Source: Pseudobutyrivibrio sp.
Lineage (GTDB): Bacteria; Bacillota; Clostridia; Lachnospirales; Lachnospiraceae
Length of the DNA: 64,000 bases
NCBI GenBank assembly: GCA_017557435.1
Contig: JAFYYR010000026.1
Location: forward strand, 1 to 64,000
Reading direction: 5' to 3'
The notes beneath the pieces are model-generated. The model saw only the letters and a program-made list of their open reading frames with translations, had not been told where the DNA came from and searched no databases. Position 1 is the stretch's first letter, and every line of letters starts with the position of its first letter. The position numbers and the translations under genes are program-made. Shown here one piece after another: positions 21,091 through 59,125 of the stretch.

Positions 21091-21180
21091 GTAGCTATCA
21101 AGCTCTTAGATTTCTCAAGCGAATCGTGTTAGATGAGCGGAGAAATGCTAAGGCTTGAGAGTGTAACAGGCGGATTATGG
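21091..21180 (+). ncRNA. Dispersed structured element, copy A (pyrC-pyrF gap)
   Basis: A long hairpin has stem parts CAAGC/GCTTG, CTTAG/CTAAG and ATTTCTC/GAGAAAT, with a small tip stem ATC/GAT around GTGTTA. It ends in the shared string GTGTAAC. The outer closing stem seen in the other copies is not preserved, so this copy looks partly decayed. It lies 47 bases before copy B. Confidence 0.55.
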
Positions 21181-21227
21181 AATGGCTGAAAGTGTAGGTC
21201 ATTAGTTTAGTGAAGAGAAAGTTTATA

Positions 21228-21310
21228 GTCGGTAGACATCAAGCTCTTATATCTCTCAAGGGAGACGTGTTGTCGAGCGGAGAGATATAAGGCTTGTAGG
21301 CGTAACCGAC
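21228..21310 (+). ncRNA. Dispersed structured element, copy B (pyrC-pyrF gap)
   Basis: The outer stem is GTCGGT/ACCGAC. The inner stems are CAAGC/GCTTG and CTTATATCTCT/AGAGATATAAG, with tip stem GAC/GTC around GTGTT. The conserved linker GGCGTAAC precedes the 3' outer strand. It ends 23 bases before the pyrF start. Confidence 0.65.
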
Positions 21311-21333
21311 TAGGTAATAGAAAGGATAAAGTT

Positions 21334-22254
21334 ATGATACAGAAACTTATTAGTGGAATTAAAGAGAAGGATGCTCCAATTGTTGTAGGTCTTGACCCTA
21401 CCATGAAGCTTATGCCTAAGAGTCTTGTGGACAAGCACATGGCTGAGCATGGCCAGACACTTGAGGCAGTTGGCGAGGCAATGTTTGATTACAACAAGCA
21501 GATTATGGATGCTTGTGCTGATTTGATTCCAGCAGTTAAGCCACAGATTGCCATGTATGAAAGCTATGGTATTCCAGGTATGATTGCATACAAGAAGACA
21601 GTTGATTACGCTAAGGAGCTTGGCCTTGTTGTTATTGCAGATATCAAGCGCGGTGACATTGGTTCTACATCTACAGCTTATGCTCTCGGTCACCTTGGCT
21701 CAGTTCAGGTAGGCGATTACAAGTATCAGGGATTTGATGCAGATATGGCAACAGTTAATCCTTACCTTGGAACAGATGGAGTCAAGCCATTTGTTGACGT
21801 ATGCAAGGAGGAGGACAAGGGTATCTTTGTACTTTGCAAGACATCTAATCCATCTTCTGGCGAGTTCCAGGACAGACTTATCGATGGCAGACCTCTCTAT
21901 GAGCACATGGCAGAGAAAATTGAGGAGTGGGGCGCAGACACACGTGAGGGCAACTACTCAAATGTAGGTGCAGTTGTTGGTGCTACATATCCAGAGATGG
22001 GCGCAAAGCTTCGTAAGCTCATGCCTCACACATATATCCTTGTTCCAGGATACGGTGCACAGGGCGGCAAGGGCGCAGACCTTGTAAATTTCTTCAACGA
22101 GGATGGACTTGGCGCAATTGTTAATTCTAGCCGTGGAATCATTGCTGCTTACCAGCAGGAGAAATACGCTAAATATGGCGAGGCTAATTTTGCAGAGGCA
22201 AGCCGTGCAGCAGTAGAGGATATGCTTGCTGATATCAGAGGAGCGCTTAACTAG
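21334..22254 (+). CDS. pyrF: Orotidine 5'-phosphate decarboxylase (type 2)
   Basis: This 306-residue enzyme makes UMP from OMP. The catalytic DxKxxD element is ADIKRGDIGST (D103, K105, D108). Length of about 300 and text such as PAVKPQIAMYESYG and NSSRGIIAAY match the longer type 2 (mycobacterial/clostridial) subfamily. GAAAGGA stands before the ATG. It lies 251 bases after pyrC; that gap holds two copies of a structured repeat. Tandem hairpins follow before pyrK. Confidence 0.95.
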   Translation: MIQKLISGIKEKDAPIVVGLDPTMKLMPKSLVDKHMAEHGQTLEAVGEAMFDYNKQIMDACADLIPAVKPQIAMYESYGIPGMIAYKKTVDYAKELGLVVIADIKRGDIGSTSTAYALGHLGSVQVGDYKYQGFDADMATVNPYLGTDGVKPFVDVCKEEDKGIFVLCKTSNPSSGEFQDRLIDGRPLYEHMAEKIEEWGADTREGNYSNVGAVVGATYPEMGAKLRKLMPHTYILVPGYGAQGGKGADLVNFFNEDGLGAIVNSSRGIIAAYQQEKYAKYGEANFAEASRAAVEDMLADIRGALN

Positions 22255-22259
22255 TAATT

Positions 22260-22353
22260 ACCTCATACCGAAGAGGAAGCCGGTTTTGAGAGGTAAAAAG
22301 AAGAGAATTTTACCACCCCAAAAGAGGAAATCCGGTTGTGAGTGGTAAAGAAA
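22260..22353 (+). ncRNA. Tandem hairpin pair between pyrF and pyrK
   Basis: Two successive units of about 40 nt each align with each other. The closing stems are TTACCT/AGGTAA in the first and TTACCA/TGGTAA in the second, a compensatory T-A to A-T change. Both share the internal strings AAGAGGAA and CCGGTT. The loops CC-GAAGA-GG and CC-CAAAAGA-GG loosely recall PyrR-binding loops but do not match the usual consensus well. Possible roles are a regulatory site or an RNA processing signal. Confidence 0.5.
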
Positions 22354-22375
22354 ATTTTTAGGAGTCATGGAATCA

Positions 22376-23140
22376 ATGAAAGTAAAAGAAAAAGCCCAGG
22401 TTTTAGAACAAATGAAGCTGGCTGAAGGAGTATACAGCTTGAAGCTTAAGACTACAGCTGCTGAGTATGCTATCCCAGGTCAGTTCATAAGTATATACAG
22501 CAACAATGGAAGCAAGCTTCTTCCACGTCCAATCAGTATCTGCGAGATAGATAAAAATGCAGGTACACTTCGCGTTGTTTACCGTGTAGTAGGTGAGGGA
22601 ACAGCAGAGTTTTCTCAGTTGAACGCTGGGGATGAAGTGGAGGTTATGGGACCTCTTGGCAATGGTTTCCCACTTGAAGGAGAAAAGACAGTCGTTGTTG
22701 GTGGCGGAATCGGTGTGCCTCCAATGCTTGAGCTTGCAAAGCAGCTTTCCGGCAGCGTAACTGCTGTAATGGGATATAGAAATGACGACATGTTCCTTAC
22801 AGAGGAGTTCACAGATGTTGCTGCAGAGCTTATTATTGCAACAGATGATGGCTCAGTAGGTGTTCATGGTACAGTTGTTGATGCCATGAAAGAAAACAAT
22901 TTGGATGCAGACGTTATCTATGCTTGCGGTCCAAAGCCAATGCTTAGGGGCGTGGCTGAGTATGCAGCTGAGCGTGGAATCAAATGCTATGTATCAATGG
23001 AAGAGCGTATGGCCTGCGGCGTGGGAGCATGCTTAGGTTGCGTATGCCAGTCCACTGAAAAAGATGACCACAGTCATGTTAACAATAAAAGGGTTTGCAA
23101 GGACGGACCAGTATTTCTTTCTACGGAGGTGGTATTGTAA
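22376..23140 (+). CDS. pyrK: Dihydroorotate dehydrogenase B, electron transfer subunit
   Basis: This subunit of about 254 residues holds FAD and a [2Fe-2S] cluster, passing electrons from the PyrD flavin to NAD. Visible are the FAD-binding RPISICEI, the NAD-binding VVVGGGIGVPPMLELA, and the cysteine cluster MACGVGACLGCVCQ near the C-terminus. The start is ambiguous: AGGAG (22360-22364) is 2 bases from ATG 22367 and 11 from ATG 22376; I took the latter. The stop overlaps the pyrD ATG as TAATG, so the two subunits are translationally coupled. Confidence 0.93.
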   Translation: MKVKEKAQVLEQMKLAEGVYSLKLKTTAAEYAIPGQFISIYSNNGSKLLPRPISICEIDKNAGTLRVVYRVVGEGTAEFSQLNAGDEVEVMGPLGNGFPLEGEKTVVVGGGIGVPPMLELAKQLSGSVTAVMGYRNDDMFLTEEFTDVAAELIIATDDGSVGVHGTVVDAMKENNLDADVIYACGPKPMLRGVAEYAAERGIKCYVSMEERMACGVGACLGCVCQSTEKDDHSHVNNKRVCKDGPVFLSTEVVL

Positions 23141-24048
23141 TGAATACAAAAGTTACCATTGCAGGAGTTGAATTTCAGAATCCTATTATGGAGGCTTCAG
23201 GCACCTTCGGTTCAGGAATGGAGTACTCAGAATTTGTTGATTTAAATAAGCTTGGAGCTGTTGTTACAAAGGGTGTTGCCAATGTGCCATGGCCAGGCAA
23301 TCCAACACCTCGTATTGCTGAGGTTAGCTCAGGAATGCTTAACGCTATCGGCCTTCAGAATCCAGGCGTTGAAGTGTTCTGCGAAAGAGATTTAAAATTC
23401 TTAGAGCAGTTTAAAGATGCTAGAGTGGTGGTTAATGTTTGCGGACATTCAGCCGAAGAATATATTGAAGTGGTAGACAGATTGGCCAGTGAATCTAGAG
23501 TAGATATGCTAGAAATCAACATTTCTTGCCCTAATGTTAAGGAGGGCGGAATCGCCTTTGGTCAGGATCCAAAAGCAGTTGAGGAAATCACTAAATTGGT
23601 CAAGGCTCACGCTAAGCAGCCTATCATTATGAAGCTTTCGCCAAATGTTACTGACATTAAGGTAATGGCAAAGGCAGCAGAGGCAGGCGGTGCAGATGCC
23701 ATTTCACTCATTAATACTCTTACAGGAATGAAAATCGATGTGGAACGTCAGAGCTTTGTCTTAGCTAATAAGACTGGCGGAATGTCAGGTCCAGCAGTTC
23801 ATCCAATTGCAGTTAGAATGGTATACGAGTGTGCAAATGCAGTTAACATTCCAATAATAGGAATGGGCGGCATTTCAACTTGGCAGGATGCAGTGGAGAT
23901 GATGCTTGCCGGCGCCACAGCTATATCTGTAGGAACAGCAAACTTCTATAATCCAACAGCTACCCTTGATATATTAGAGGGAATGAAAGATTATATGGTT
24001 CGCAAGAAAATCGATGATATAAATGATATAATAGGAATTGTAAAGTAG
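23140..24048 (+). CDS. pyrD: Dihydroorotate dehydrogenase B, catalytic subunit
   Basis: This is a 302-residue FMN enzyme of class 1B. The catalytic cysteine is in NISCPNVK (C130). FMN and phosphate-binding blocks GMGGISTWQDAVEM and AISVGTANF are present. ATG at 23140 overlaps the pyrK stop and follows GGAGGT; the longer open frame starting at 23095 runs inside pyrK and is not used. Pairing with PyrK defines the NAD-dependent form typical of Firmicutes. Confidence 0.95.
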   Translation: MNTKVTIAGVEFQNPIMEASGTFGSGMEYSEFVDLNKLGAVVTKGVANVPWPGNPTPRIAEVSSGMLNAIGLQNPGVEVFCERDLKFLEQFKDARVVVNVCGHSAEEYIEVVDRLASESRVDMLEINISCPNVKEGGIAFGQDPKAVEEITKLVKAHAKQPIIMKLSPNVTDIKVMAKAAEAGGADAISLINTLTGMKIDVERQSFVLANKTGGMSGPAVHPIAVRMVYECANAVNIPIIGMGGISTWQDAVEMMLAGATAISVGTANFYNPTATLDILEGMKDYMVRKKIDDINDIIGIVK

Positions 24049-24117
24049 AATTGATTGATACTTATCCTTATGTTCACAGAAAAATCAGACAATATACTCA
24101 GAAATTTCCGTGACACT

Positions 24118-24146
24118 TTTACATCGATTTGCTAAACTTTTATTAC
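24118..24146 (+). promoter_or_regulatory. Promoter for mecA
   Basis: TTTACA at 24118-24123 and TATTAC at 24141-24146 with a 17-base spacer; AAAGGAGGGGG follows just before the ATG. Confidence 0.55.
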
Positions 24147-24178
24147 ATCGACACACTATGTGAAAGGAGGGGGAGCTG

Positions 24179-24877
24179 ATGAAGTTCAAGAGAATAGGCG
24201 AGGATAAAATACGCTGCGTCATCACCAAAGAAGAAATGGAACAGAACGGCATGGAGCTTGGAGATTTCGTCAGTGACCAGGAGAAAACCCAAAGCTTTAT
24301 CAGGGATATTTTAGCTGAGGCATGTGAGACTCTAGGTATGGAGACCCACGCTAAGGCTTATAGTGTTCAGATGACAGTTATGCCACAGGGCGATGTTGCA
24401 TTACTTATATCCCCAGATTCAAGTTCAGGACTGGCAACTGCAATTGAGGAATTGAAGAAACATTTAACAGGTTTACAGGAGACACTTTCTACAACTAAGA
24501 ATCCACCTCCTATTTCAGCTAGCACAGCTGATGTACCGGTACAGAACGCAACAGTACTTAAGGACGAGAGAGACGAGGTTACAGATCAGTATCTTGATAC
24601 ACCATTGTGGGCGATTCTTCCAGATTTGGATGCTGCTATTGAATTATGCAGACACGTTCCAAAGTACGAGGGAATTAAGAGCTCCCTATATCGTTACGGC
24701 GATGATTACTATATCAAGCTTAACTTCCAGTTAACACGTCGTCAGATTTCAGCGGTGATTCTTGTTATTGCTGAGTTCGCAAGCCAGATGTTTACAGAGA
24801 GCTTTGATGGAGCATTCCTATTAGAGCACGGAGATTTGATTTGCGATGACTGTGTAAATGTTTTATCTCAGATTTAA
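24179..24877 (+). CDS. mecA: Adaptor protein MecA
   Basis: This 232-residue protein starts MKFKRIGEDKIRCVITKEE, the usual MecA N-terminal domain that binds substrates. A low-complexity linker (about 105-130) follows, then a C-terminal domain (PLWAILPDLDAAIELCR...) that docks on ClpC. MecA targets competence and other regulators to ClpCP. Length fits the family. The gene stands alone between a promoter and a terminator. Confidence 0.88.
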   Translation: MKFKRIGEDKIRCVITKEEMEQNGMELGDFVSDQEKTQSFIRDILAEACETLGMETHAKAYSVQMTVMPQGDVALLISPDSSSGLATAIEELKKHLTGLQETLSTTKNPPPISASTADVPVQNATVLKDERDEVTDQYLDTPLWAILPDLDAAIELCRHVPKYEGIKSSLYRYGDDYYIKLNFQLTRRQISAVILVIAEFASQMFTESFDGAFLLEHGDLICDDCVNVLSQI

Positions 24878-24904
24878 GGCATATTAATTAAATAGAATAA
24901 ATAC

Positions 24905-24941
24905 AAAGAGTGAACTCTATTTTGAGTCCACTCTTTTTTTG
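24905..24941 (+). terminator. Intrinsic terminator after mecA
   Basis: AGAGTGAACTC pairs with GAGTCCACTCT (one mismatch), followed by a run of seven or more T residues. Confidence 0.88.
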
Positions 24942-25129
24942 TCGGAAACTTTTGATTGTGCATCATCAACAAAAAGGAGAGGGCAAAACTGGGCAAAATG
25001 TATGTTGTACTTAGATAAATACACCAAATGTTATAAAAGCATGTTATACTCTCGAACTGTGTTAAAAATATAACACATCGAAAGTGCACTAGTAACTATA
25101 TGGAATTTTGGTTATTTATGGAGGAACTT

Positions 25130-27121
25130 ATGAATAAAAAGAATAAGAAGATACGTGGAGGTGTAAGACAGAAATTAATAGCAATTATGCTTTTAATAGC
25201 TATTATACCTTTGGTTGTTGCTGTTTCTATCAGCTATATTAACTCAACAAACAGCGCAAAGGAACAAGCTAAGCAGAATTTAGATTGGCAGGCAAAATAC
25301 ATTGAGTCTGAAATCGACAAGATATTTTCAAAGTGTGAAACAGCCCTTAACAGTTTTGCATCATCTCAGCAGACAATCGCTTTTCTTAAAGGCGAGTTAA
25401 CTGACCCTGCTGAAGTTAAAAACCAGATGGTAGCAATTAATGAGTCTTTTGGAGATTCCAATACAATTGTTATGTCAAATTCAAATGGTGACATGGTATT
25501 ACGTAGCGATGATGGTGCTCTTAAGAATATTAAAGAAAGAGATTACTGGCAGAACGCTATGAAGGGAAAGACATTTATTTCTAGCGTATTCGTAAGCTCG
25601 GTTACTAATACAAGAAATATTTGTGTAGCCGTTCCTGTTTTTGACAATGATAAGAAGACAGTAATTGGTGTTGTACATAAAACATTAAATCCGGATGAAA
25701 TCCATACATTATTAGCAGAAGATGCAGAAGAAGCTTTCCTTGTAGACCAGGAAGCTACAATGGTTGCTCACTCTGATTTTGAAATTGCAGTTGATGATGA
25801 GCCAGTTAACTATGCATCATCACCTTATATGACATCAACCGATAAGAACGGTTTTTATGTAAGTACAGCTAAGGGTTACCCAGTATATGTAAGCTATTCA
25901 AAGAATGAGGCTTCTGGATACACAGTTTGTGCTGGAAAGAGCGAAAGCGAAGTTGTAAGCGAAGCTAGACGTGGAGCAATGTTAATTGTAATCACAGGAT
26001 TATGCATGGTTGCTGCAGTATTAGTTCTTTCTATTTTCGTTGCAAACGGATTTACAAATCCAATTCTTGAAGTAAACAAGATGATTTCTGCTCTTGCAAA
26101 TGGTGAGTTTGTTAAGACAAAGAAGTATACAAAGCGTAAAGATGAGTTTGGTCAGATGATTAACAATACAAACTCACTTGTTGATACATTATCTACAATC
26201 GTTGGACATATTAAGGATTCTTCTAACACAGTTGGAGAGTCTTCTGAGGAACTTTCATGTATGGCTGATCAGATTGCAGCTACAACAGAGGGTGTTGCAA
26301 CAGCAGTTCAGCAGATTGCTAGCGGTGCAATTCAGCAGGCGGAGGATATTCAGTCTGCAGCAGAGAGCACAAATCAGATTACAGATGCTGTTGAAAATGT
26401 TCAGGCATCTACAAACGACATGACTTCACTTGCAAGTCGTATGAAGGATGCATCAGAGGCATCAGGAAGTTCATTAATGAACCTTCAGACTGCAAGTACT
26501 GAAATGACAAATAAGATTGAAGAAATTGCTACAAAGATTTCATCTACTCAGCATGCAGTTTCTAATATTAACGAAAGAGTTGAGGGTATTTCAGGTATTG
26601 CCGCTCAGACAAATCTTCTTTCATTAAACGCTTCTATTGAAGCAGCACGTGCTGGCGAGGCTGGTAGAGGTTTCGCTGTCGTAGCAGAGGAAATCAGAAA
26701 GCTTGCTGATGATTCAGAGAGCCTTGCTTCTGAAATTAGAATTTTAATGGATGAGCTTTTAGCTGAAGCAGAAGAGGCTGTAAAGGCTGCTTCCCTTGTT
26801 ATGGAAGGAAATATCGAGCAGCAGAAGGCTCTTGGCGATACACTTGAGTCAGTTCAGGGTATGCTTACTGATATTGAAGAAACGGTAAATAGCGTTGCTA
26901 AGATTTCTGGCGAAGCAAATACTTGTGTATCTTCTAATTCAGTTGTTTCAAGTGCAATGTCATCTCTTTCAGCTATTTCAGAGGAGAATGCAGCATCTAC
27001 AGAGACAACAGGTGCATCAGTTGAAGAGTTATCTGCAACTGTAACTACACTTGCAGAGTCTGCAAATCACCTTAAGACAATTGCTGAGAAGTTAAACGAG
27101 GATATGAAGTTCTTTAAGTAA
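25130..27121 (+). CDS. Methyl-accepting chemotaxis protein
   Basis: This is a chemoreceptor of about 663 residues. The order is: N-terminal helix (about 15-36), a large extracellular Cache-type sensor (about 37-280, with [19 protein letters not shown] and [13 protein letters not shown] typical of dCache), a second helix (about 283-304), a HAMP region, and the coiled-coil signalling domain. The hairpin tip carries the conserved [20 protein letters not shown] and [19 protein letters not shown] at 25130 follows GGAGG by 5 bases; earlier ATGs at 25100 and 25118 lack such a site. The ligand is unknown. CheW follows directly. Confidence 0.93.
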
Positions 27122-33611: not shown

Positions 33612-33790
33612 TGCCCTTTTTTTGAATGCAATAATAGATAAAGATTCAGGAACTCGATAGAAGTTGCAAGTGACCTCTGATGATACATTATTAACAAGAA
33701 AATAAGAACCATACACGAGCAAAAGCCAAGAGTGAAAGGCTATTTTGCACGTGAATGAGAATTAGAAAGATCGTTATAAAGGAGAAGAAA

Positions 33791-35239
33791 ATGGAAAACT
33801 TGAAAACACAGATAGTTGTCATTGCAGGTGGTCCAGCAGGTATGTCTGCAGCGGTTCAGGCAGCTGAAGATGGAGCAGATGTCATTGTAATTGAGAAGGC
33901 AAACATCACAGGTGGTGCAGCTAATATGGGTATGGGCCCACTTGGTATTGGAACAAAATATCAGCAGGAGCAGATGATTGATATCACTGTTGAGAAGGCA
34001 TTTAACATGTTTATGGACTACACACATTACAATGTTGATGCACGACTCATCAAGCGATATTTTGAGCAGTCTGGCGAGACAATTGAGTGGTTAGAGGACA
34101 TGGGGGTTGAGTTTGAAGGAGCTTTCAAATATTTTCCACAGTCAGAGGCTACATGGCACATCGTTAAGACAGGAAACAAAATTGGACCACGTGCAGCAGG
34201 TCATATGAATAAGGCTCTTCTTAATAAGGCTCAGGAGCTTGGTGTTAAGGTGCTTCTTGAGACAGCTGGAAAGAAGATTTTAAAAGATGATGAAGGCAAA
34301 GTTTGCGGTGTAGTTGCTGTAAATAAAGATGGCGAGGAATTCACAATTGAGTGTAAGGCTGCAATCATTGCAACAGGTGGTGCTGGTAATAACCCAGAGC
34401 TTATCAAGGAGGAAATCGGATTAGAGTTTGGCAAGGATGTATTTAACTTTGCAATTCCAGGTCTTATGGGTGATGGTCTCAAGATGGCTTGGGAGGCAGG
34501 TGCAGATCACCTTCCAGTTAGAATTGAGCAGGCTTGTGATGTAGGTGGCGGCGAGGAAGCATCAGCTTCAGTTAAGAACGTCCTTAGACAGCCAAACCTT
34601 CTTGTTAACAAGTTTGGTAAGAGAATCATGAACGAGGAGTTCATGCAGAATACAACATATCTTTCAAATGTAGCAATGCATCAGAAGGATAAGACTATCT
34701 ACTCAATCGTAGATTCATCAATCGTTAAGTCATACATCAAAAATGGCGTAGATGTAACAAGCCTTGTTACTCCAGACCCAGATGTTTCAGATTTCAATGA
34801 GGGAATGGAGGAGCTTCTTTCAAAGGGCTCAAAGAATTTCTTCAAGGCAGATACTATTGAGGAGCTTGCTGAGCAGATTGGCATTGACCCAGAGGTTCTT
34901 GCGGAGACAGTTGATGATTACAATGATTACTGTGAAGGCAGAGATGAAGAGTTCTTCAAGAACTATAGATTCCTTCGCAAGTTAAAGAAGGGACCATTCT
35001 ACGCAGGTGCTTTCCATCCAGGCGGATACGGCACAGTAGGTGGAATCCGTATAAACGAAAACTGTGAGTGCTGCGACAAAGACTTTATGCCTATTCCAGG
35101 ACTTTATGCTTGTGGCGCTGATTCATGCAACATCTACGATGATAGCTACATGTTCTTGCTTCCAGGCAACTCAATGGGATACGCAGTCAACACAGGACGT
35201 ATCGCGGGTATGGAGGCTGCGGAATATATAGAGGATTAA
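33791..35239 (+). CDS. FAD-dependent reductase, fumarate reductase flavoprotein type
   Basis: This is a 482-residue flavoprotein of the FAD_binding_2 family (fumarate, urocanate and other enoate reductases). The dinucleotide loop is VIAGGPAGMSAAVQAAEDGA, followed by TGGAANMGMG, the substrate-domain texts IIATGGAGNNPELI and FHPGGYGTVGGIRIN, and the C-terminal FAD contact PGNSMGYAVNTGRIAGMEAA. There is no signal peptide, heme or covalent-FMN domain, so it is soluble and needs electrons from a partner, plausibly the FeS pair just upstream. ATG at 33791 follows AAGGAG. The likely role is reduction of an unsaturated bond, perhaps in an aglycone or keto-sugar product; the substrate is unknown. Confidence 0.82.
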   Translation: MENLKTQIVVIAGGPAGMSAAVQAAEDGADVIVIEKANITGGAANMGMGPLGIGTKYQQEQMIDITVEKAFNMFMDYTHYNVDARLIKRYFEQSGETIEWLEDMGVEFEGAFKYFPQSEATWHIVKTGNKIGPRAAGHMNKALLNKAQELGVKVLLETAGKKILKDDEGKVCGVVAVNKDGEEFTIECKAAIIATGGAGNNPELIKEEIGLEFGKDVFNFAIPGLMGDGLKMAWEAGADHLPVRIEQACDVGGGEEASASVKNVLRQPNLLVNKFGKRIMNEEFMQNTTYLSNVAMHQKDKTIYSIVDSSIVKSYIKNGVDVTSLVTPDPDVSDFNEGMEELLSKGSKNFFKADTIEELAEQIGIDPEVLAETVDDYNDYCEGRDEEFFKNYRFLRKLKKGPFYAGAFHPGGYGTVGGIRINENCECCDKDFMPIPGLYACGADSCNIYDDSYMFLLPGNSMGYAVNTGRIAGMEAAEYIED

Positions 35240-35252
35240 ACTTAGAATATGA

Positions 35253-35336
35253 GTCCGTAGTAGACAATCTCTTAGGACTCTGCAGTCTCACATGTAGTGA
35301 GCGAAAGAGTCACTAAGGATTGTCTGCGTAACGGAC
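35253..35336 (+). ncRNA. Dispersed structured element, copy C
   Basis: The outer stem is GTCCGT/ACGGAC. The inner stems are GACAATC/GATTGTC and CTTAGGACTCT/AGAGTCACTAAG (one bulge), with tip CTCAC/GTGAG around ATGTA. Paired bases differ from copies B and D while pairing is kept. GCGTAAC is conserved. It ends 26 bases before the deglycosidase beta subunit gene. Confidence 0.65.
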
Positions 35337-35362
35337 GGATTAGAATAGGGAGGAAAAATAAA

Positions 35363-35755
35363 ATGGCAGGAAGACCTATATATAAACCATCTAGCTTTAG
35401 GAATGTAGAGTGTGATGGTAAGGTTGTCGGCTTTTCATTTGATTGGAAAGCCCAGTACTATCGTTCATTTACACTTTCAATTTTGAGAGATTTGATTATT
35501 AAGGTGGATGGACAGGATATTAACAGAGACGATATTAGAATCACAGTAAACAATGTACAGTTCACACTTGAGGAGTGTAGAACAGTTGTGGACCCAGAGT
35601 ATAGATGGGAATTTGGCGAGTACGCAACAGTTACAGTATTAAAAGAGGGCGGCCTTTCAAAGGGTAAGCATTACATCGAAGCAGTACAAAAAATTGCTCC
35701 TTCATATATGCCATTCGTTATTGAGGCTCCATGTAATACAGAGTTCGAAATATAG
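35363..35755 (+). CDS. dgpC: C-glycoside deglycosidase beta subunit-like (DUF6379)
   Basis: This 130-residue beta-rich protein (MAGRPIYKPSSFRNVECDG...) matches in size and pattern the small beta subunit that pairs with a TIM-barrel alpha subunit in C-glycoside deglycosidases (DgpC/CarC type), which cleave the C-C bond of 3-oxo-C-glycosides. GGGAGG precedes the ATG at 35363; the longer frame upstream crosses the structured element and is rejected. The alpha subunit gene follows 16 bases later. The identification is from memory of the family and context; O-glycoside activity is equally possible. Confidence 0.65.
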   Translation: MAGRPIYKPSSFRNVECDGKVVGFSFDWKAQYYRSFTLSILRDLIIKVDGQDINRDDIRITVNNVQFTLEECRTVVDPEYRWEFGEYATVTVLKEGGLSKGKHYIEAVQKIAPSYMPFVIEAPCNTEFEI

Positions 35756-40864: not shown

Positions 40865-43264
40865 ATGGAAAATATAAGGGAAATAGTGCAATTTAATATT
40901 ATTCATGAATCGAGCAGTGAGCCAAGGGAGCAACACTATCATCAGAATCTTGATATGCTTTATGTTCTTTCAGGTTCTGTTGATGTGGTGATTGATGATA
41001 AGGAGTATCACCTGAAAGAGGAGGATATGATTTTAATCAATTCCAATAAGCGTCATAAGTTCGAAAACTCAGGCAATCTTTTGGCTATCAGATTTGCAAT
41101 CGATTATTATCTGTTGTCACAGACCGTAGGAACTACTCAAATGCTTTTCCTATGCAATTCTGCAGTGGATAAAAACTCAGCCTACGACTAGCTGCGCCAC
41201 CAGATTAAGGAGATTATCAGATACTACTATACTGAGACCAAGGGAGATAAATGTTATCTTCAGGCTCTCTACTATCAGATGCTCCATGTGCTGATAGCCA
41301 ATTTCATGGTAAAGACTGAGGAGGCCAAAGTCCTATTTGACCATAACTCAGACAAGGAGCGAATCAGCGAGATTCAAAGCTATATCCAAGGCCATTATCA
41401 GTCCCCAATCAGTCTAAATGATTTGGCAGAGCAAATGTTTTTGACACCGGCATATCTTTCCAAATACATCAAAAAGAAATTTGGAATGACATTCATAGAT
41501 TATCTAAACAACATAAGACTTTTCCATGCAGTGGATGAGCTGGTATACACCAATAAGAGCCTGACACATATTGCTATGGACAATGGCTTTTGCACATCGG
41601 CAGCCCTTAATAAATCCTTTAAAAAAGTTTTCAATATGTCACCAGGTGAATACAGAAAATCTGCAGAAAAATGCGCCGAGCAGGTGGCCAAAGAAGATGA
41701 AATCGGCAAGCAGGAAATCATCTCATTTATTGAAAATGAAAGCAGCAAGTTAAATACAGGTAAGGTTAATCAGAAACTTGTGGAGGTTGATGCTTCAGTT
41801 TACAAGAAAAAATATGTGGACGAGACACGAGTGATTAATATTGGCAGCATCTATATGTTGCTTCAGCAGGAGGCTCAGGAGCAGCTTTTAGAGCTTAAGG
41901 AAAAGCTTGGAATAACTCACGTGAGAGTGTGGAATGTATTCGCCTTAAATACATGCATCAGAGAACAGGAGACCTACAGTTTTCACAAGCTGGACAACGT
42001 CCTTGATTTTCTGGTGGACAACGACATTAAGCTTTACATGGAACTAGGCCAAAAGCCAACACTTCTCATGTATGCACCGGAGAGATACATTAATCCAGAC
42101 TCAAAAGAAATCAAATTGTTTGAATATGATTTCTACAAAAAGCTAATCAAGGATTTGAGCATCCATCTGGTAAACAGATATGGCATTGAGGAAATTGAAA
42201 AATGGTACTTCGAATTTTGGAACAATCCTCTTTTAAAAATTGGAGAGGAAAATGGTGAGTACTACAGATATTTCGATTTGATATACAAGACATTTAAAAA
42301 TATAAGTGAGGATATTAATATCGGCGGCCCGGGACTTGTTCTTGGTTATGAAAAGGCCCTGGCTGACAAGGTATTTGCAATTTGGAAAAAGAGGGAAATA
42401 TGGCCTGATTTTATTTCATTTGGTTCCTTCCAGTACATTTCATTTACAGATGGGCAGTTTGTTTACGGTAAGAAATCTCTGGATAAGGATTACGTTATCA
42501 ATCAGGTTTCTGTTATGAAGCAGTCCATGGCGGATATTGGATTTAACGTAAAAGAGTTCCATCTAGACGAATGGAATTACACTGTTTCAAATCGAAATGT
42601 CATCAGCGATAGCTGTGAGCATGCAGCCTACATTATGAAAAACTACATCGACATGATTGGACTTGTGGATGTGATGTGCTATTGGCATGGACTGGATTTG
42701 TATGCAGAGTACTACGACACCAATTCACTTTTAAGTGGTGATGCGGGATTGATTTCTAGAGATGGAATAAAAAAGCCTTCATTTTACGCAGTGGAGTTCT
42801 TGAATCGCAGTTATTGCAATGAGATTGCCAGAAATGAAAATGGAATCATTTCCACAAATGGACGAGGCAGCTACTCCATTGTATGTCACAATTTCAAGCC
42901 TCTATCTGAAAAGTATCTAGATATAGAGGAAGACTTAATTCAGATAAAAGATATTGACCATTACATACAGGACACTGAGGATCTTGGAATGAAATGCATT
43001 TTGGACAAAGTTCAAAATGGAAATTACCAGATTAAAACATACTACATTAATCCAGAGTATGGCAGTGTGCAGGATATGTGGAAGCGCCTTGGCCTTGCAG
43101 AATCCATGGAAAGTGAGGAGATTCAGTTCATTAAGCAGCACGCCAATCCTAACATGGAGATGCAGCAAGTGGAGGTTAGCGACAATAAGCTGGAAATCGA
43201 TTTTAGCCTAAAGGCTACAGAAATCAGGTTCATAGAAATAAAGTATCAATTCAAATATGAGTAG
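40865..43264 (+). pseudogene. AraC-GH39 regulator interrupted by an in-frame TAG
   Basis: One frame runs from 40865 to 43264, broken only by TAG at 41189-41191 (codon 109). Residues on both sides match the intact paralogue at 36958: LFLCNSAVDKNSAYD before the stop aligns with its FFLCNSAADKSKSYN, and LRHQIKEII after it continues the same helix. The downstream part holds the AraC domain (LNDLAEQMFLTPAYLSKYIKK) and a GH39-like barrel. The nucleophile block DEWN (E569) is kept, but the NEP acid/base block is NNP (N453-N454-P455), so the acid/base Glu is lost and hydrolysis is unlikely. No ribosome site precedes ATG 40865; a TATAAT lies about 10 bases before it. Internal ATGs (such as 41279) could give a protein without the cupin. 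It may be a nonsense mutant, a sequencing error, or read through. Confidence 0.8.
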
Positions 43265-48412: not shown

Positions 48413-48507
48413 CTTATAATTTCTAAATTTTAAAAATAAAAGACCCGTGGCATGCTCGTATCATTCTGAACGAGACTGTATCACCTTAAATAAAGGAGGT
48501 GTTGCCA

Positions 48508-53747: not shown

Positions 53748-53792
53748 AACATCAACTCCTTTTTGTTTTCTAATACTTTTATAGATTAATAT

Positions 53793-54689
53793 CTAACCTG
53801 CGTAAGCTATATTGGTGAATAAATCGTACTCGCTTACACCGTCTACATAGAATACTTCGCGGCCATCCTCTTCTTTAGAGCTGTAGATGAGATAGCCGAG
53901 AAATTCATCATTCTCATCGGAAAAACCGATGCAATTTTGTCCTAGGATACAAGGATAAATTTTATCTCCTGCCTTAGCTGATTTTGGCTCCTCACCGGAT
54001 TCATCATAGAATGTAATATCCTGTTTCAGTTCAAGTCCGGTTGGGTTTGTGATTTTAGGATGTTTTTCGGCAGTCCAAAGGCCGGTCTTATCATAATAAA
54101 ATTGATTAGAAGTAATCCAAGTACCAAAGACGTCTACAACCTCTCCTAATAAGAGATTATTATCGGTAAATTCATAAACATTATATCCATCTAAAGAGTC
54201 GATTTCCTTAAGCTCGCCATCTTCCCATCTGTACAAAATAGTCTGATAGGTACAACAAATTCCACTAAGAGAGGCAATTACATAATTGCCATCTTCAGCT
54301 TGAGAATAGTATGCCGATGCAAATTCGATGTCTGGATCTGTATTCTCATCTACGACGGATATAGTTTGATCCTTAATTTGAATGTCATAGTAGTATTTGT
54401 CTTCATCCTCTAAATAATTAGACTCAAAAGTGATTTCATCCATTTGACCATCAGAATCAATATCTATCTCTTTAGGGCTATTTTCCTCCAATTGAAGAGA
54501 AAAGAAGTCTTGGTCTGTGGCGTCACTATCATCTGAATCTTCTTCATCAGTTGATGCAGCAGTTTCAGTTGTGGTCTGCGCTGGTGTATTTCCTGCCACC
54601 TCTGTGTTGTCTGGTTTGTTTTCCCCGCAAGAAGTGAGCATAGCTGCAGACAATGAAAGTGATATTAATAAATTTAATTCTCTTTTCAT
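53793..54689 (-). CDS. Lipoprotein, unknown function
   Basis: This 298-residue protein has a lipoprotein signal (lipobox LTSC, Cys21). An acidic Thr/Ser/Asp-rich linker (about 25-60) is followed by a globular beta-rich region with the EF-hand-like loop DIDSDGQMDEI. Such loops in dockerin- or FG-GAP-like lipoproteins may bind calcium. No enzyme motif is seen. GGAGG lies before the ATG. It has an excellent promoter overlapped by an 11-bp dyad (54738-54766). Confidence 0.75.
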   Translation of the reverse strand: MKRELNLLISLSLSAAMLTSCGENKPDNTEVAGNTPAQTTTETAASTDEEDSDDSDATDQDFFSLQLEENSPKEIDIDSDGQMDEITFESNYLEDEDKYYYDIQIKDQTISVVDENTDPDIEFASAYYSQAEDGNYVIASLSGICCTYQTILYRWEDGELKEIDSLDGYNVYEFTDNNLLLGEVVDVFGTWITSNQFYYDKTGLWTAEKHPKITNPTGLELKQDITFYDESGEEPKSAKAGDKIYPCILGQNCIGFSDENDEFLGYLIYSSKEEDGREVFYVDGVSEYDLFTNIAYAG

Positions 54690-54725
54690 AACTACCTCCG
54701 TTTTAAAACATTAATTGTTTGTACA

Positions 54726-54766
54726 ATAATATGCTAAAAACTGTATTATGTCAAATAATACAGTTT
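54726..54766 (-). promoter_or_regulatory. Promoter of the lipoprotein gene with long dyad operator
   Basis: Reading on the minus strand, TTGACA (54749-54754) and TATTAT (54726-54731) are 17 bases apart. The perfect inverted repeat AAACTGTATTA-N7-TAATACAGTTT (54738-54766) covers the -35 and part of the spacer, so a repressor is likely to block this promoter. Confidence 0.65.
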
Positions 54767-54845
54767 GCAGACTAGAATGTTCATACAAATAATGGCATAA
54801 TAAATAGAGTTAATTTATGAAAAATAGAAATAAGGGGGGCTAATT

Positions 54846-55058
54846 ATGAATAAAGAATTTCTTGAAGAACGTGAATTTAAAAAATTGCTGGCAGAAAAGA
54901 AATATAAGATTTATTTCCAAGAGGAAAGTGACTGCGTTATAGCTGAAACAGAAGTAGGTGATGTGGTTGTCGCCTTTAGTGAGTATGAATATTACTCTAT
55001 GAATCCGGATGAAATCGAGCAAAAAATATATGAGGGAATAAAGTCTAGGAGTAGATAA
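54846..55058 (+). CDS. Small acidic protein, unknown
   Basis: This is a 70-residue soluble protein with mixed charge (EREFKKLLAEKKYKIYF). It has no known motif, no signal and no membrane segment. AAGGGGGG precedes the ATG, a strong ribosome site. The next gene begins 9 bases later, so they are co-transcribed and perhaps functionally linked. Confidence 0.6.
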   Translation: MNKEFLEEREFKKLLAEKKYKIYFQEESDCVIAETEVGDVVVAFSEYEYYSMNPDEIEQKIYEGIKSRSR

Positions 55059-55067
55059 GGATAATAA

Positions 55068-56177
55068 ATGAGCGATAAAAATAAGATTGTTATAAGAGCA
55101 TATAAAGGGATGGTTCTAGCCATAGTTAGTTTTATATGTTTGATAATATTGACTGTACTTGTATTATTAGGTGGAGCATTTGATTTTGAGGCATTTGAGT
55201 TTAGTTATAATTGCTTGAATATTGCATACGCATTTTATATTGCTGTCGCAGCATTTGTAGTTTTAATAATAGTTGGTATAGGTCTATATTCTTCCAGCAA
55301 AAATGATTCTGCCTGGGACGACTTGATAACAATAGATACAGATAGTATAGAGGATAAAAGATTATCTATTAATGAGATAGCGCGCAAGAATAATATTGTG
55401 CTCCCAAAGCTTTTTATAGGCATGTTATTACCTATTATTCCTTTTATTATTTTTTCGGTTCTTGAGACTGCTCTTGAAGATTATGATTTCAAAATGCCAG
55501 AGCCAGAAGTTGAAGTGGAAGAAATAGCGGACGAGACTATAGATTTTGATTTAGATGTTGAAGATAAACTTGAATCAGAAGCTAATCATGATGCAGTTAT
55601 TGATGAGATAGATGATAGCGAATCTTCATATGATCCATTTGAGTATACGAATATAGAAGATGAAAAGATAAAAGAACTAATGACGGAGATGGAGAGTATA
55701 GCGGAGGATAATGGGTATCTAGCTCTGACTTGTGGATATAATGATGAGGCTGAAGAATATGATATCCTATTTGACAGTGATTACGATTATAATTCTAAGG
55801 ATTGGAGTGGCAATCATCTTTATGTCAGGACGGATAGTTATGGAAATGTAATATGGTGTTCATATATCTTTTATTTTAATGAAGAGTTGTCCGATTCTAG
55901 TAATTTAGCTGATGCAAAAAAGTATATTGCTGATATGAGTAAATTATTAGAACTTTTCTATGATGCTGGTCTAATAAAAGATAAGGAATATTTTGAAGAG
56001 ACAAAAATAGAAGATACTATAGTAGAAGATATAAGAAAAGAAGAAAAGGGATGGATAAAGAGAAAAATTAATTCAGAGATGAGTGTGGTATATGAAATTG
56101 AGAACGTCAATGGTGAATACCATGACTATGAGGATTGCTTCGAGGTTCATATTTACTATGAAAACCCTGAGAAATAA
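55068..56177 (+). CDS. Membrane protein with large acidic extracellular domain, unknown
   Basis: This 369-residue protein has two helices near the N-terminus (about 13-38 and 50-75), a third at about 115-135, then a very acidic linker (PEPEVEVEEIADETIDFD). A folded domain of about 170 residues follows, rich in Tyr, Asp and Ser (DILFDSDYDYNSKDW). Charge and composition resemble extracellular sensing or surface domains, but no family was recognised. It is downstream of the 70-residue gene in the same transcript. Confidence 0.6.
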   Translation: MSDKNKIVIRAYKGMVLAIVSFICLIILTVLVLLGGAFDFEAFEFSYNCLNIAYAFYIAVAAFVVLIIVGIGLYSSSKNDSAWDDLITIDTDSIEDKRLSINEIARKNNIVLPKLFIGMLLPIIPFIIFSVLETALEDYDFKMPEPEVEVEEIADETIDFDLDVEDKLESEANHDAVIDEIDDSESSYDPFEYTNIEDEKIKELMTEMESIAEDNGYLALTCGYNDEAEEYDILFDSDYDYNSKDWSGNHLYVRTDSYGNVIWCSYIFYFNEELSDSSNLADAKKYIADMSKLLELFYDAGLIKDKEYFEETKIEDTIVEDIRKEEKGWIKRKINSEMSVVYEIENVNGEYHDYEDCFEVHIYYENPEK

Positions 56178-56182
56178 AAAAC

Positions 56183-56211
56183 TTACACAGACAAAAAAAT
56201 TCTGCTATAAT
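56183..56211 (+). promoter_or_regulatory. Promoter of the DUF2798-like gene
   Basis: TTACAC at 56183-56188 and TATAAT at 56206-56211 with a 17-base spacer, followed by a leader of about 110 bases. Confidence 0.65.
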
Positions 56212-56232
56212 CCCTACTTGTGTTAAAAATAT

Positions 56233-56304
56233 AGAAGATGTACGCAGGTATCATTGGAAACGCACACCCTTGTGGTGATAACGAACAACACGCTGAAGTC
56301 TTCT
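56233..56304 (+). ncRNA. Structured 5' leader of unknown class
   Basis: AGAAGA/TCTTCT closes a fold with an inner stem GTATCA/TGATAAC (one bulged base) and a tip CACA/TGTG around CCCT. The single-stranded stretches ACGAACAACACGC and TTGGAAACG look conserved-like but match no riboswitch I can name. It ends 25 bases before the gene. Confidence 0.35.
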
Positions 56305-56329
56305 CTGGTTTTATGAAAGGAGAAACAAC

Positions 56330-56806
56330 GTGTTACCACAGAATAAGTTTCAAGAAGTTATTTTTACAATGTTTATGGCTTTTGTCATGGTGTATGCAAT
56401 GATTTGCTACAATATCTCACTTAATGTTGGAGGATTAAAGAATTTTGTATTTCTCGCTGCATTTAAGGAGATGATAGTCATGTGGCCTATTGCAGTAGTA
56501 TTAGAATTGCTTTTTGTTGGCAAGCTGGCACAGAAGCTTGCATTTAGATTCGTCACACCAGGCAAAGATTCAATTATAATGGTGATTCTTGCAATTTCTA
56601 CAATGTCAGTTTGCCTCATGTGTCCGCTCATGAGTTTGACAGCAACAATTCTTTTTAAGAATGCTGGAATTGAGATTGTGGCTGTATGGCTTCAGACTAC
56701 AGCTATGAATTTTCTAGTAGCTCTCTGTTGGCAGATTTTCTTTGCGGGCCCATTTGTTAGAAATGTTTTTGGCTTTTTTGTAAAGAAGAAAAATAAACAT
56801 ATATAG
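56330..56806 (+). CDS. DUF2798-like four-helix membrane protein
   Basis: This 158-residue protein has four hydrophobic segments. The pattern of two repeated two-helix units (MVYAMICYNISLNVGG... and LTATILFKNAGIEIVAVWLQ) fits DUF2798 membrane proteins. AAAGGAG lies before the start. The structured leader upstream suggests control in the RNA. A 27-codon open frame directly after it (56807-56890, ending AFTSFPDGK) has no ribosome site and may be a remnant. Confidence 0.6.
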   Translation: MLPQNKFQEVIFTMFMAFVMVYAMICYNISLNVGGLKNFVFLAAFKEMIVMWPIAVVLELLFVGKLAQKLAFRFVTPGKDSIIMVILAISTMSVCLMCPLMSLTATILFKNAGIEIVAVWLQTTAMNFLVALCWQIFFAGPFVRNVFGFFVKKKNKHI

Positions 56807-56906
56807 ATGATGTTTTCCGATGCAAAGGAAAAATATGGGGAGCCAGAAATTGAGAGAGGAGCATTTACAAGCTTTCCAGATGGAAAATAATAAGGGATAA
56901 AAAATA

Positions 56907-56958
56907 AGCCCCGCTAGAAGTTAGAAGGAGAATCTAAATTCTAGCGAGGCTTTTTTAT
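56907..56958. terminator. Bidirectional terminator between convergent genes
   Basis: AAGCCCCGCTAGAA pairs with TTCTAGCGAGGCTT (one mismatch), then TTTTATT on the + strand. It lies between the DUF2798-like gene and the DUF4867 gene. Confidence 0.8.
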
Positions 56959-56965
56959 TTATAAT

Positions 56966-57610
56966 TTACTGAATATCATTTGCGATATCGATGTTTTCGC
57001 CTGTGATTCCTACCCAAGCGCCATCCTTTGCTTCAGATGCTTCTGCATGAGCAAGGAGCCACTTGTTAGTAGCTGTAAGAAGCTTGTCCTCTGTGTTAAG
57101 GCGAGGGAAGTCTGGGCAGCCTACATTTGTTCCCTTTGGAAGACCAACAAGTACCTGGAATCCAGAATCCTTGTGTGCCTGACATGGAGCATAGTGAAGT
57201 GCTGTTGCGTATACTTCAATCATTGTGCCTGCTGGGCAGAAGAATGCTTTTACTTTGTTAGAATCAAGCTTGAAATCAACGATTTCTTCTCTCTTTGCAA
57301 GAAGTAAAATGAAATCTGTAGCTCCTAAGTTAATCTCGCTTGAGCGATGATACTCAAGGCAGTTGAGCTTTGTGTTGTGACCGTTGCACCAACCAAACTG
57401 CATTGGTGAACCACCAAATAATGAATTAGTGATTTTATCTGCAGCAGCAAGTGACTGAAGTTCCTTCTCCTCTGCCACATAGTCTGTGCCTTCTGGAATA
57501 GGTGTCTTATCTCTAAGAGCCTCTACAATTGCCTTTTTCTCTGCTTCATACCCCTCGATAATTCTTCCATAGTTAGTAAACTCTGGATCTGTTACATTAT
57601 AAATTTTCAT
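56966..57610 (-). CDS. DUF4867 family protein (cupin-like)
   Basis: This 214-residue soluble protein (MKIYNVTDPEFTNYGRIIEG, ECHRS-type block LEYHRSSEINLGATDFILLL, CPAGTMIEVYATALHYAPC) fits DUF4867, a cupin-like family often found with sugar isomerases and Gfo/Idh enzymes. ATG at 57610 is favoured over 57613 because AAGGAGG lies 5 bases before it. It is divergent from the sugar isomerase at 58021 across a 410-base gap holding two dyads. It probably takes part in keto-sugar or lactone metabolism (inference). Confidence 0.75.
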   Translation of the reverse strand: MKIYNVTDPEFTNYGRIIEGYEAEKKAIVEALRDKTPIPEGTDYVAEEKELQSLAAADKITNSLFGGSPMQFGWCNGHNTKLNCLEYHRSSEINLGATDFILLLAKREEIVDFKLDSNKVKAFFCPAGTMIEVYATALHYAPCQAHKDSGFQVLVGLPKGTNVGCPDFPRLNTEDKLLTATNKWLLAHAEASEAKDGAWVGITGENIDIANDIQ

Positions 57611-57669
57611 CATATCCTCCTTTTACATAGAGTAGGACTAATCCCATAGATACCATGGGAATGCCAGAA

Positions 57670-57703
57670 TCTTGCCAGATGCCTTCTCTTTTATTTGGCA
57701 AGA
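57670..57703. promoter_or_regulatory. Dyad TCTTGCCA-N18-TGGCAAGA near the DUF4867 promoter
   Basis: This perfect 8-bp inverted repeat lies about 60 bases upstream of the DUF4867 start. The half-site TTGCCA also occurs at 36848 and 43353. A smaller stem CCCAT/ATGGG lies between it and the gene. Confidence 0.45.
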
Positions 57704-57833
57704 AGTCCCACTTTTTCTTGAATAAAATTATACAGCTTATGGTTTTTCCCTGCTTATAAATAATTAACTAAATAGAGTCAAAAAATTGTCTGGCAAAGCT
57801 CCAGTAAAAGCCGTGATAGGACAATTTTTAACT

Positions 57834-57864
57834 TGTGCAAGAGATGACATAAATCTGTTGCACA
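57834..57864. promoter_or_regulatory. TGCAA-N17-TTGCA dyad, site 6 (extended)
   Basis: TGCAA at 57836-57840 and TTGCA at 57858-57862 with 17 bases between; the arms extend to TGTGCAA/TTGCACA. It is followed by GGATTTTTT. It lies 159 bases before the sugar isomerase gene and could also serve the divergent DUF4867 gene. Confidence 0.6.
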
Positions 57865-58020
57865 GGATTTTTTATAAAAGAGACAAGATGCAAATATTGA
57901 ATTAAAATCAAAAAAATTTCTAAAGTGAGGGCCTTCTTTTTTTCATAGAATAAAGCTAGTCAAAGACAAGAAACGTAGATGACAAAAGGAGAATTATTTA
58001 CATAAGAAAAGGAGAAGACA

Positions 58021-58860
58021 ATGGGAAAAAAACTTCCAGTTGGTATTCAGGTATATGGTCTTAGAGACTTGCTTGAAAACACACCAGAAAATTTCAAAAA
58101 TGTTATGACAAAAGTGAAGGAAATGGGGTATGACGGAGTTGAGCTTGCTGGCCTCTATGGCTTGGAGCCAAAGTTCGTTAAGGAGACTCTTGATGAGGTT
58201 GGTCTTATTCCTATCTCGGCTCACGTAGCATTCCAGGAAATGATGGATGACATCGACAAAGTCATTGCAGATTATTCAGTAATCGGAGTGAAATATCTTG
58301 TAATGCCTTATATGGCTGAGGAATATCGTCCAGCTAATCCAGAAGGTTTCAAGGAGTTCCTTCCATTATTAAATCAGGTGGGAGAGAAAATTCACAAGGC
58401 AGGAATGACTTTCCTTTATCACAACCACGATTTCGAGTTTGTAAAGCTTGAAAATGGCAAGTGGGGATATGACGAAATGTTTGATGCAATTCCAGCAGAG
58501 AACTTGCAGTCAGAGCTTGATACTTGCTGGTGTGATGTAGCAACAGGTGAGGCACCAGAATTCATCAAGAAGTACACTGACAGAATCCCAGTAGTTCACC
58601 TTAAGGACTACATCAAAAAGGGTGAAGTTAAAAATATGTACAAGCTCATCGGAATCGATGAGGAAGAATCTGAGGGAGACACAGGATACTTCGGATTCCG
58701 CTCAGTTGGCTTTGGCCAAATGCTCTGGGAGCCAGTACTTGAGGCAGCCATTGATGCCAACGCACAGTGGGTAATCGTAGAGCAGGATGAGCACTACGAA
58801 CTTGAGCCACTTGAGTGCGCTCGCCGCAGCCGCGAATACCTACGTATCCTTGGCTGGTAA
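58021..58860 (+). CDS. Sugar phosphate isomerase/epimerase family TIM barrel
   Basis: This 279-residue protein has the xylose isomerase-like barrel. Likely metal-site blocks are FLYHNHDFEF, ELDTCWCDVA, VVHLKDYI and WVIVEQDEH. Related proteins include IolE, hydroxypyruvate isomerase and 3-keto-glycoside hydrolases of Gfo/Idh clusters. It is shorter than the 35772 barrel and has no DUF6379 partner, so it probably acts on a free keto-sugar or O-glycoside. AAAGGAG precedes the ATG. Dyad site 6 lies upstream, linking it to the other locus genes. Confidence 0.8.
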   Translation: MGKKLPVGIQVYGLRDLLENTPENFKNVMTKVKEMGYDGVELAGLYGLEPKFVKETLDEVGLIPISAHVAFQEMMDDIDKVIADYSVIGVKYLVMPYMAEEYRPANPEGFKEFLPLLNQVGEKIHKAGMTFLYHNHDFEFVKLENGKWGYDEMFDAIPAENLQSELDTCWCDVATGEAPEFIKKYTDRIPVVHLKDYIKKGEVKNMYKLIGIDEEESEGDTGYFGFRSVGFGQMLWEPVLEAAIDANAQWVIVEQDEHYELEPLECARRSREYLRILGW

Positions 58861-58868
58861 AACCGTAT

Positions 58869-59002
58869 GCGGCCATTTAGTTTTTCATGCTCCCGCAGGG
58901 CACCCTTCATACTCGGGCATGGGCCCCACCCGCCCGGTGTAGGTCCCTCCCATGCCCGGCATGACTCTTCCCTGCTCGCGCTTGCCAAGTGAGTGAGGCC
59001 GC
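58869..59002. repeat. GC-rich nested palindrome between the isomerase and Gfo/Idh genes
   Basis: Three nested stems occur in order: GCGGCC/GGCCGC (58869-58874, 58997-59002), GCAGGG/CCCTGC (58895-58900, 58970-58975) and the 10-bp CGGGCATGGG/CCCATGCCCG (58914-58923, 58949-58958), with a CACC/GGTG tip. The stretch is much richer in G and C than anything else in the window. It may be a MITE-like repeat, an untranslated RNA or an unusual terminator. It lies 38 bases before structured element copy D. Confidence 0.55.
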
Positions 59003-59039
59003 AATTGATATTATTAGAACAAGTAAATATAGCCGGCGA

Positions 59040-59125
59040 GTCCGGTAGGCATCAAGCTCTTAGGTCTCTCAAGCGAGACATGTAGTCGAGCGGAGAGACT
59101 CTAAGGCTTGTAGACGTAACCGGAC
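59040..59125 (+). ncRNA. Dispersed structured element, copy D
   Basis: The outer stem is GTCCGGT/ACCGGAC. The inner stems are CAAGC/GCTTG and CTTAGGTCTCT/AGAGACTCTAAG (one bulge), with tip GAC/GTC around ATGTA. GACGTAAC and the trailing GGATTA are shared with copy C. It ends 34 bases before the Gfo/Idh start. Confidence 0.65.

Follow-up and report, generated by a model that had tools for sequence, protein, structure and literature searches.

Four copies of a dispersed, structured element lie in a 64,000-nt stretch of Pseudobutyrivibrio sp. DNA (contig JAFYYR010000026.1 of assembly GCA_017557435.1, positions 1 to 64,000; hereafter the window), all on the + strand and all sense to the next gene. 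Copy 1 (21083..21181) begins immediately 3' of the stop codon of a dihydroorotase-like gene (19736-21082) and adjoins copy 2 (21224..21320), the upstream neighbour of an orotidine monophosphate decarboxylase (pyrF-like) gene starting at 21334. Copy 3 (35249..35346) is flanked by a FAD-binding oxidoreductase gene (33755-35239) and a CGDB-family gene with its ATG at 35363, and copy 4 (59037..59134) by a xylose-isomerase-like gene (58021-58860) and a GFO/IDH/MocA gene (59160-60443). The outer stem, P1, ends 23, 26 and 34 bases from the start codon in copies 2, 3 and 4, respectively, in agreement with the proximity to gene starts described in a first-pass annotation of the sequence.

That annotation had proposed a plan common to the four copies, an outer stem, a GCGTAAC-type linker, a long inner stem and a tip hairpin with an RTGTW-type loop, in which paired bases differ while pairing is retained. 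The observation is real: the plan is present in all four copies, with GTAG...CGTAAC as the linker type and a single bulged T in the inner stem, and the exchanges named in the annotation are read in the sequence. The outer stem is GTCGGT/ACCGAC in copy 2, GTCCGT/ACGGAC in copy 3 and GTCCGGT/ACCGGAC in copy 4, the inner CAAGC/GCTTG is replaced by CAATC/GATTG in copy 3, and GAC/GTC alternates with CAC/GTG at the tip. Outer-stem pairing holds in copies 2-4. In copy 1, two of the six P1 pairs are broken; this copy consists of a TGAG flank, P1 (GCAAGT/ACAGGC), GTAG, the P2-P3 hairpin, tip, GTAAC linker and a GCGGATTA tail; in the ortholog of copy 1 from genome G013 (the nearest relative, at 93% in the pyrF-like gene), P1 is fully paired (GCAAGT/ACTTGC). 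Each copy folds better than dinucleotide shuffles, with z values of -4.35, -5.66, -7.15 and -6.82 for copies 1 to 4, and in each case 0/200 shuffles fold as well. A covariance model search of the window returned these copies as the only strong matches, with scores that are not independent, unlike the folding test, as the model was partly built from them. The next-best match (42871-42972, - strand, 17.2 bits, E 0.018) lies within a predicted open reading frame (ORF) and is probably due to chance.

Structure and covariation of the element

The covariance model (R1) was built from 29 copies of the own genome (G000; alignment A3), the structure being drawn from the A3 rows themselves. Many copies begin with 5' TGAG, followed by the six pairs of P1, the letters of which are free yet paired. 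GTA is found in 29/29 copies opposite GTAAC (GTGAC in two), producing G-C and T-A pairs in 29/29 and an asymmetric loop of A against GTA. P2 comprises 10 pairs, CAAGC/GCTTG (CAATC/GATTG in two copies), then a single bulged T, then CTTAG/CTAAG, and P3 a further 7 pairs with a 3'-side bulge, often with a GC pair and tandem G.A, leading to a tip of three pairs capped by an RTGTW-type loop. Conservation extends beyond P1 in many copies (TGAG 5', CGGAYTA 3'), part of this flank evidence coming from copies found with a model that already includes the TGAG/CGGAYTA flanks. The P1 arms are inverted repeats whose letters vary between copies, and the outer TGAG and CGGAYTA are weakly complementary.

Among the 29 own copies, double-sided changes occur at 25/33 pairs and 91.9% of 953 cells are paired, compared with 28-41% after sliding one strand, and 0/500 shuffles reach the observed value. 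Essentially the same result is obtained with a second set, drawn from other genomes and made non-redundant, of 68 copies that share <85% identity with each other and with those of A3 and were aligned to A3 by sequence alone: 93.4% of cells are paired, as against 30-42% after sliding, double changes occur at 29/33 pairs, and 384 double-change cells are counted against a shuffle maximum of 129. These copies were found via R1, so the set retains some residual leaning towards the drawn structure. Compensatory change in a dispersed element is thus supported on copies from other genomes as well.

P1 length divides the copies. In 154/184 copies P1 is short and 14/154 have a flanking T- or A-run; the remaining 30/184 have a P1 lengthened to 7 or more pairs beyond the invariant G-C, and such a run is present in 21/30. 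The long-P1 copies resemble intrinsic terminators, from which the short P1 of most copies differs. Miniature copies are also found that retain P1 and the GTAG/GTAAC linker with the inner hairpin mostly lost (L027/L029 at G000:C25:86509-86564, and G012:C1 about 1447634). Some elements lie within the loop of a second, element-like hairpin (L009 = L050 at G000:C23:131861, L030 at G000:C25:128087, and L193 in G028); the nesting at G000:C23:131861 is present in G013, though stem letters differ.

Distribution and placement among genes

The count of four in the first-pass annotation stands for strong copies in the window but not for the genome. In the own genome (2.84 Mb), at least 78 R1 matches, all with E below 1e-3, were obtained from the 150/883 first-look candidates scored, a number that becomes 66 under the filters of the genus-wide survey. 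A blastn search of this genome with copy 4 gave 36 matches at E up to 1; the weakest of these may have arisen by chance, and one mini-copy accounts for two, each matching one of its halves. The covariance model search proposed by the annotation detected the element in 28/29 genomes of the genus, own included, with at least 1,352 matches summed over the 29 genomes, no more than 67 candidates being scored in each, and a density of ~29-40 matches per Mb in the genome stretches examined. The lowest counts, 0, 1 and 6 matches in G020, G007 and G004, respectively, come from genomes that are 82-86% complete. In other genera, R1 detected the element in 0/32 genomes of a first survey, and a draw of 299 genomes of the family, in which 13 candidates were scored per genome and which shares some other-genus genomes with the first survey, gave two positives of the own genus and 0/297 others. 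When GTDB genomes were searched with a degenerate DNA pattern, 79 of the 80 matches listed were titled Pseudobutyrivibrio and one Butyrivibrio fibrisolvens 16/4. Viral contigs gave 0 matches to the exact pattern, and plasmids and phages no blastn match to copy 4. Within the genomes sampled, the family is restricted to Pseudobutyrivibrio.

Placement was scored with a simple ORF caller for 61 copies on the own contig C23 and 1.46 Mb of G013. Between co-directional genes 44 copies are sense and 11 antisense, a sense bias of 44/55, while 4 are convergent, 0 divergent and 2 inside an ORF. The median distance from match end to start codon is 20 bases in sense copies, 33/44 lying within 50. Copies of the family precede unrelated genes. 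Among gaps of at least 100 bases, divergent gaps account for 0/48 of those with the element and 102/504 of those without (Fisher p 5e-5). In a wider set of 107 copies in GTDB loci, 58 are sense, 16 antisense, 15 convergent, 5 divergent, 11 at an edge and 2 inside an ORF.

Turnover at orthologous sites

Presence and absence of the element at orthologous sites, read by eye, differ between species. The pyrC-pyrF gap contains one or two copies in 12 of 27 genomes, oriented towards pyrF, a remnant in two (G001, G016) and no element in 13; in one of these 13, G026 (L182), a different palindrome is found in place of the element. In the gap of copy 3, read in nine genomes with the downstream gene, the element is present in G000 and G013, and G028 has a version with a different interior. 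It is lacking from the other six: in G002, G012, G021 and G027 the upstream gene is the same and the gap is short, and in G024 and G011 the upstream gene is another one. Of eight genomes read at the gap of copy 4, G000, G002, G021 and G027 have a sense copy and G013 an antisense copy further upstream; the stretch read in G028 contains only a GC-rich repeat, and G012 and G016 have no clear copy.

When 38 own copies were compared with G013, 18 sites were occupied in the same orientation, 15 were without a site in the G013 part compared and for 5 the model found no match. Of the latter, two (orthologs of L039 and L028) keep the element interrupted by another palindromic repeat. For 10 copies of G012 compared with G019, 2 sites were occupied, 1 was inverted, 2 were unmapped and 5 gave no match, one of the five being a mapping miss as G012 382151 is occupied in G019 when reverse-mapped. 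We therefore rejected all three sites as losses, element sequence being present at each. The inverted copy (G012:C1 about 1415030, G019:C13 203405) lies inside a terminator-like stem common to both species, and several copies lie inside such stems. Insertion into pre-existing terminator loops was considered and rejected: in the one informative pair (G019:C13 about 99111 versus G012) the loop is GTAGCGTAAC, as expected of an element that has lost its inner hairpin and not of an unoccupied target. The palindromic repeat that splits the tip region of the two interrupted G013 elements, a third repeat of the CATGCTAAAA...TTTTAG-ATG type, is also free-standing elsewhere, for example upstream of pyrF in G026.

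At occupied sites the two arms of the stems change in concert. In 20 orthologous pairs, 540 of 655 pair cells are unchanged, 45 show one-sided and 70 two-sided changes, and standard pairing is kept in 58/70 of the latter. Independent change at the mean flank identity of 91.5% would give ~102 one-sided and ~5 two-sided changes, an expectation that uses flanks including coding DNA, so that the free intergenic rate could be higher. One pair (L058-G013:C11 475284) is a doubtful ortholog, as an inverted neighbour, own L048, shares its P1; omitting it leaves 526 unchanged, 37 one-sided and 59 two-sided of 622. Changes are unevenly spread, with zero in the pair cells of five pairs and 7 to 11 double changes in each of L041, L043, L045, L052 and copy 3, in which P1 GTCCGT/ACGGAC corresponds to GCTTGT/ACAAGC in the ortholog. 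Flanks of the block-changed sites are 88-94% identical between species. In 9/18 own-G013 pairs the core is nearer a paralog, in both genomes, than the ortholog, and at G013:C11 552451 the copy is like the adjacent one as far as GTAAC but retains the old outer 3' arm. Hairpin blocks are thus replaced with pairing mostly surviving, and because both arms change together as blocks in part of the cases, covariation overstates the number of independent compensations.

RNA-level and DNA-level interpretations

Stem mismatches differ with orientation. The ratio of G.T to A.C in stems is 93:24 in 108 sense copies and 20:22 in 27 antisense copies, permutation of the sense and antisense labels giving p 0.0011 (135 copies) and p 0.0017 (110 copies after an 85% identity filter); in a smaller subset the ratios are 40:11 in sense, 7:7 in antisense and 3:1 in convergent copies. 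A protein recognising one DNA strand predicts the same ratio in both orientations whereas selection on a transcript predicts a difference, and the asymmetry therefore supports selection as RNA. Strand-biased mutation would give the same pattern: transcription-associated C-to-T change on the coding strand would likewise turn up as G.T mismatches in sense copies and as A.C mismatches in antisense ones, which is why we regard the asymmetry as support, not proof.

Combined, these observations lead us to favour, with a probability of roughly 0.6, a dispersed, ~90-nt, non-autonomous intergenic repeat, similar to repetitive extragenic palindromic (REP) sequences, BOX elements or miniature inverted-repeat transposable elements (MITEs), that is kept paired as an RNA hairpin between cistrons. 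The transcript would fold into a two-storey hairpin, in which a covarying P1 is followed by a near-invariant asymmetric loop (A opposite GUA, beside the invariant G-C and U-A) and a 22-pair inner stem with a bulged U and a small tip. Copies would have spread within genomes in the manner of such repeats, presumably moved by an enzyme, and hairpin blocks may be swapped with paralogous copies. Between co-directional genes, the element would act, or be tolerated, as an RNA hairpin read out in the transcript, its pairing being maintained there. Position and mismatch asymmetry suggest that the likeliest role is that of an intercistronic mRNA element that affects how the downstream cistron is processed, stabilised or insulated; the 22-pair inner stem is a plausible RNase III substrate, and a minority of copies may act as terminators through a P1 extended beside a T-run. 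More tentatively, intercistronic hairpins might renew their arms as matched blocks, paralogs replacing each other's modules at a fixed site with structure preserved and turnover faster than in neighbouring DNA, the A/GUA loop being the site of a protein on RNA or single-stranded DNA.

Several observations weigh against this interpretation. Convergent and co-directional gaps are occupied at approximately equal rates (4/34 and 44/416), and divergent placement is rare rather than forbidden, as 5/107 copies of the wider set are so placed. Roughly one in two orthologous copies shows almost no change. The 22 convergent copies have a G.T to A.C ratio of 15:3, which neither selection as RNA nor strand-biased mutation predicts in particular, and the asymmetry has the mutational alternative given above. 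No transposase could be linked to the element in a search that covered Y1_Tnp, other transposase families lying outside it, and no target-site duplication was seen by eye in the few readable filled and empty pairs.

A purely selfish, REP-like repeat, the hairpin of which is recognised as single-stranded DNA by a DNA enzyme, with RNA irrelevant and placement reflecting tolerance, would account for the bulged hairpin with an invariant GTA at its foot, the high copy number, the intergenic location and the rarity in divergent gaps, traits that resemble those of REPs (PMC3733652, PMC8266576), as well as for presence/absence differences and nesting. The corresponding partner was sought and rejected: Y1_Tnp, the domain of the REP-associated tyrosine transposases (RAYTs), has 0 matches in the own genome (96.2% complete), while the same search is positive in 5/14 control genomes, it is missing from 19/29 genomes of the genus, and 12 of 18 Y1_Tnp places of the genus, when examined, had 0 model matches nearby. 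A strand-specific DNA substrate also does not predict the sense versus antisense mismatch difference, and the sense bias near start codons is equally unaccounted for; we consider this explanation rather unlikely. Alternatively, the paired changes could be mutational in origin, produced when copies undergo gene conversion or template switching with one another under little structural selection; this would fit the block-wise change between conserved flanks and the paralog-like cores, that of G013:C11 552451 included. Random conversion tracts should, though, disrupt pairs frequently, whereas pairing is observed in 92-93% of cells, and mismatch type tracks gene direction. This process is unlikely as the whole explanation, although it can hold together with the RNA hairpin reading and the odds need not sum to one.

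Sense placement near start codons, a conserved internal loop, covariation and the copy or remnant in the pyrC-pyrF gap of 14/27 genomes would be expected of a duplicated gene-specific cis-regulatory RNA, that is, a riboswitch or leader. Such an RNA is nevertheless very improbable because orthologous gaps are empty in many congeners, downstream genes are unrelated, and copies occur inverted, inside terminator-like stems and inside each other. A known RNA family was likewise rejected, consistent with the first-pass annotation, which had recognised no riboswitch: at gathering scores Rfam gave one match only in the whole window, the pan motif, away from the copies, and in the 16 of 30 loci searched at E up to 1 no family reached its gathering score. 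The sub-threshold matches were mir-306 (27.3 bits, gathering 52), antisense of the L002 copy, and snoU61 (24.3 bits, gathering 55), off the copy. Of the alternatives offered by that annotation, a MITE has some support from the repeat-like spread and an intra-operon RNA from the sense placement and G.U/A.C asymmetry, whereas gene-specific regulation is not, the same gaps being empty in many congeners.

GTAG REPs have a GTAG foot at an imperfect hairpin of 20-50 nt, are intergenic, mainly between unidirectional or convergent genes, and form sub-families with alternative complementary stem letters (PMC3733652); the main text of that report does not contain Firmicutes, Clostridi- or Butyrivibrio. 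The Pseudobutyrivibrio element shares the conserved GTAG foot, bulged hairpin, high copy number, intergenic placement rare in divergent gaps and alternative stem letters. In contrast, it is ~90 nt long, the tag G and T are paired with C and A of GTAAC (29/29) rather than unpaired outside the stem, and it has a second conserved strand (CGTAAC), conserved outer flanks and no Y1 transposase in the own genome. Copy number and rarity in divergent gaps are therefore those of a REP, whereas a short palindrome with an unpaired tag, and a RAYT in the own genome or beside the copies examined, were not found.

BOX, RUP and SPRITE of Streptococcus pneumoniae fold when transcribed, BOX and RUP having paired ends, BOX a modular interior and SPRITE a terminator-like form, and are over-represented between convergent genes (PMC3049150); they are found inserted into one another (PMC10969869). 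Compared by description, our element resembles BOX in its paired ends, modular interior and nesting, and differs from all three in being mostly sense between co-directional genes with no convergent-gap enrichment. Correia elements are also known as NEMIS. Correia and ERIC are small repeats read through as hairpins, Correia transcripts being cut by RNase III (PMC10969869), and are similar in size class and hairpin formation but occur in other bacteria with another structure. The words Butyrivibrio and Lachnospir- are absent from the main text of the RepRanger paper (PMC12306157). Literature searches, which left most subscription journals outside, found no paper on this repeat family and none combining Pseudobutyrivibrio with repetitive extragenic palindromic.

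The family, RNA-like and absent from the Rfam copy searched, provides a compact natural system in which to separate RNA-level from DNA-level selection, combining strong covariation, both orientations and orthologous sites in close species. The comparison of sense and antisense mismatches could be carried over to REP, BOX and ERIC families, for which RNA function versus selfish DNA is at issue.

Two further features of the window were observed. A second, GC-rich dispersed repeat, containing TTGGCAAGCGCGAGCAGGG on the - strand, lies beside copy 4 (about 58900-58990) and is found at other intergenic sites of the genus (L334, L336, L338 and G012/G013 sites). The pan motif (RF01749; 48385-48481, + strand, 42.9 bits) is located directly before an ORF starting at 48499.

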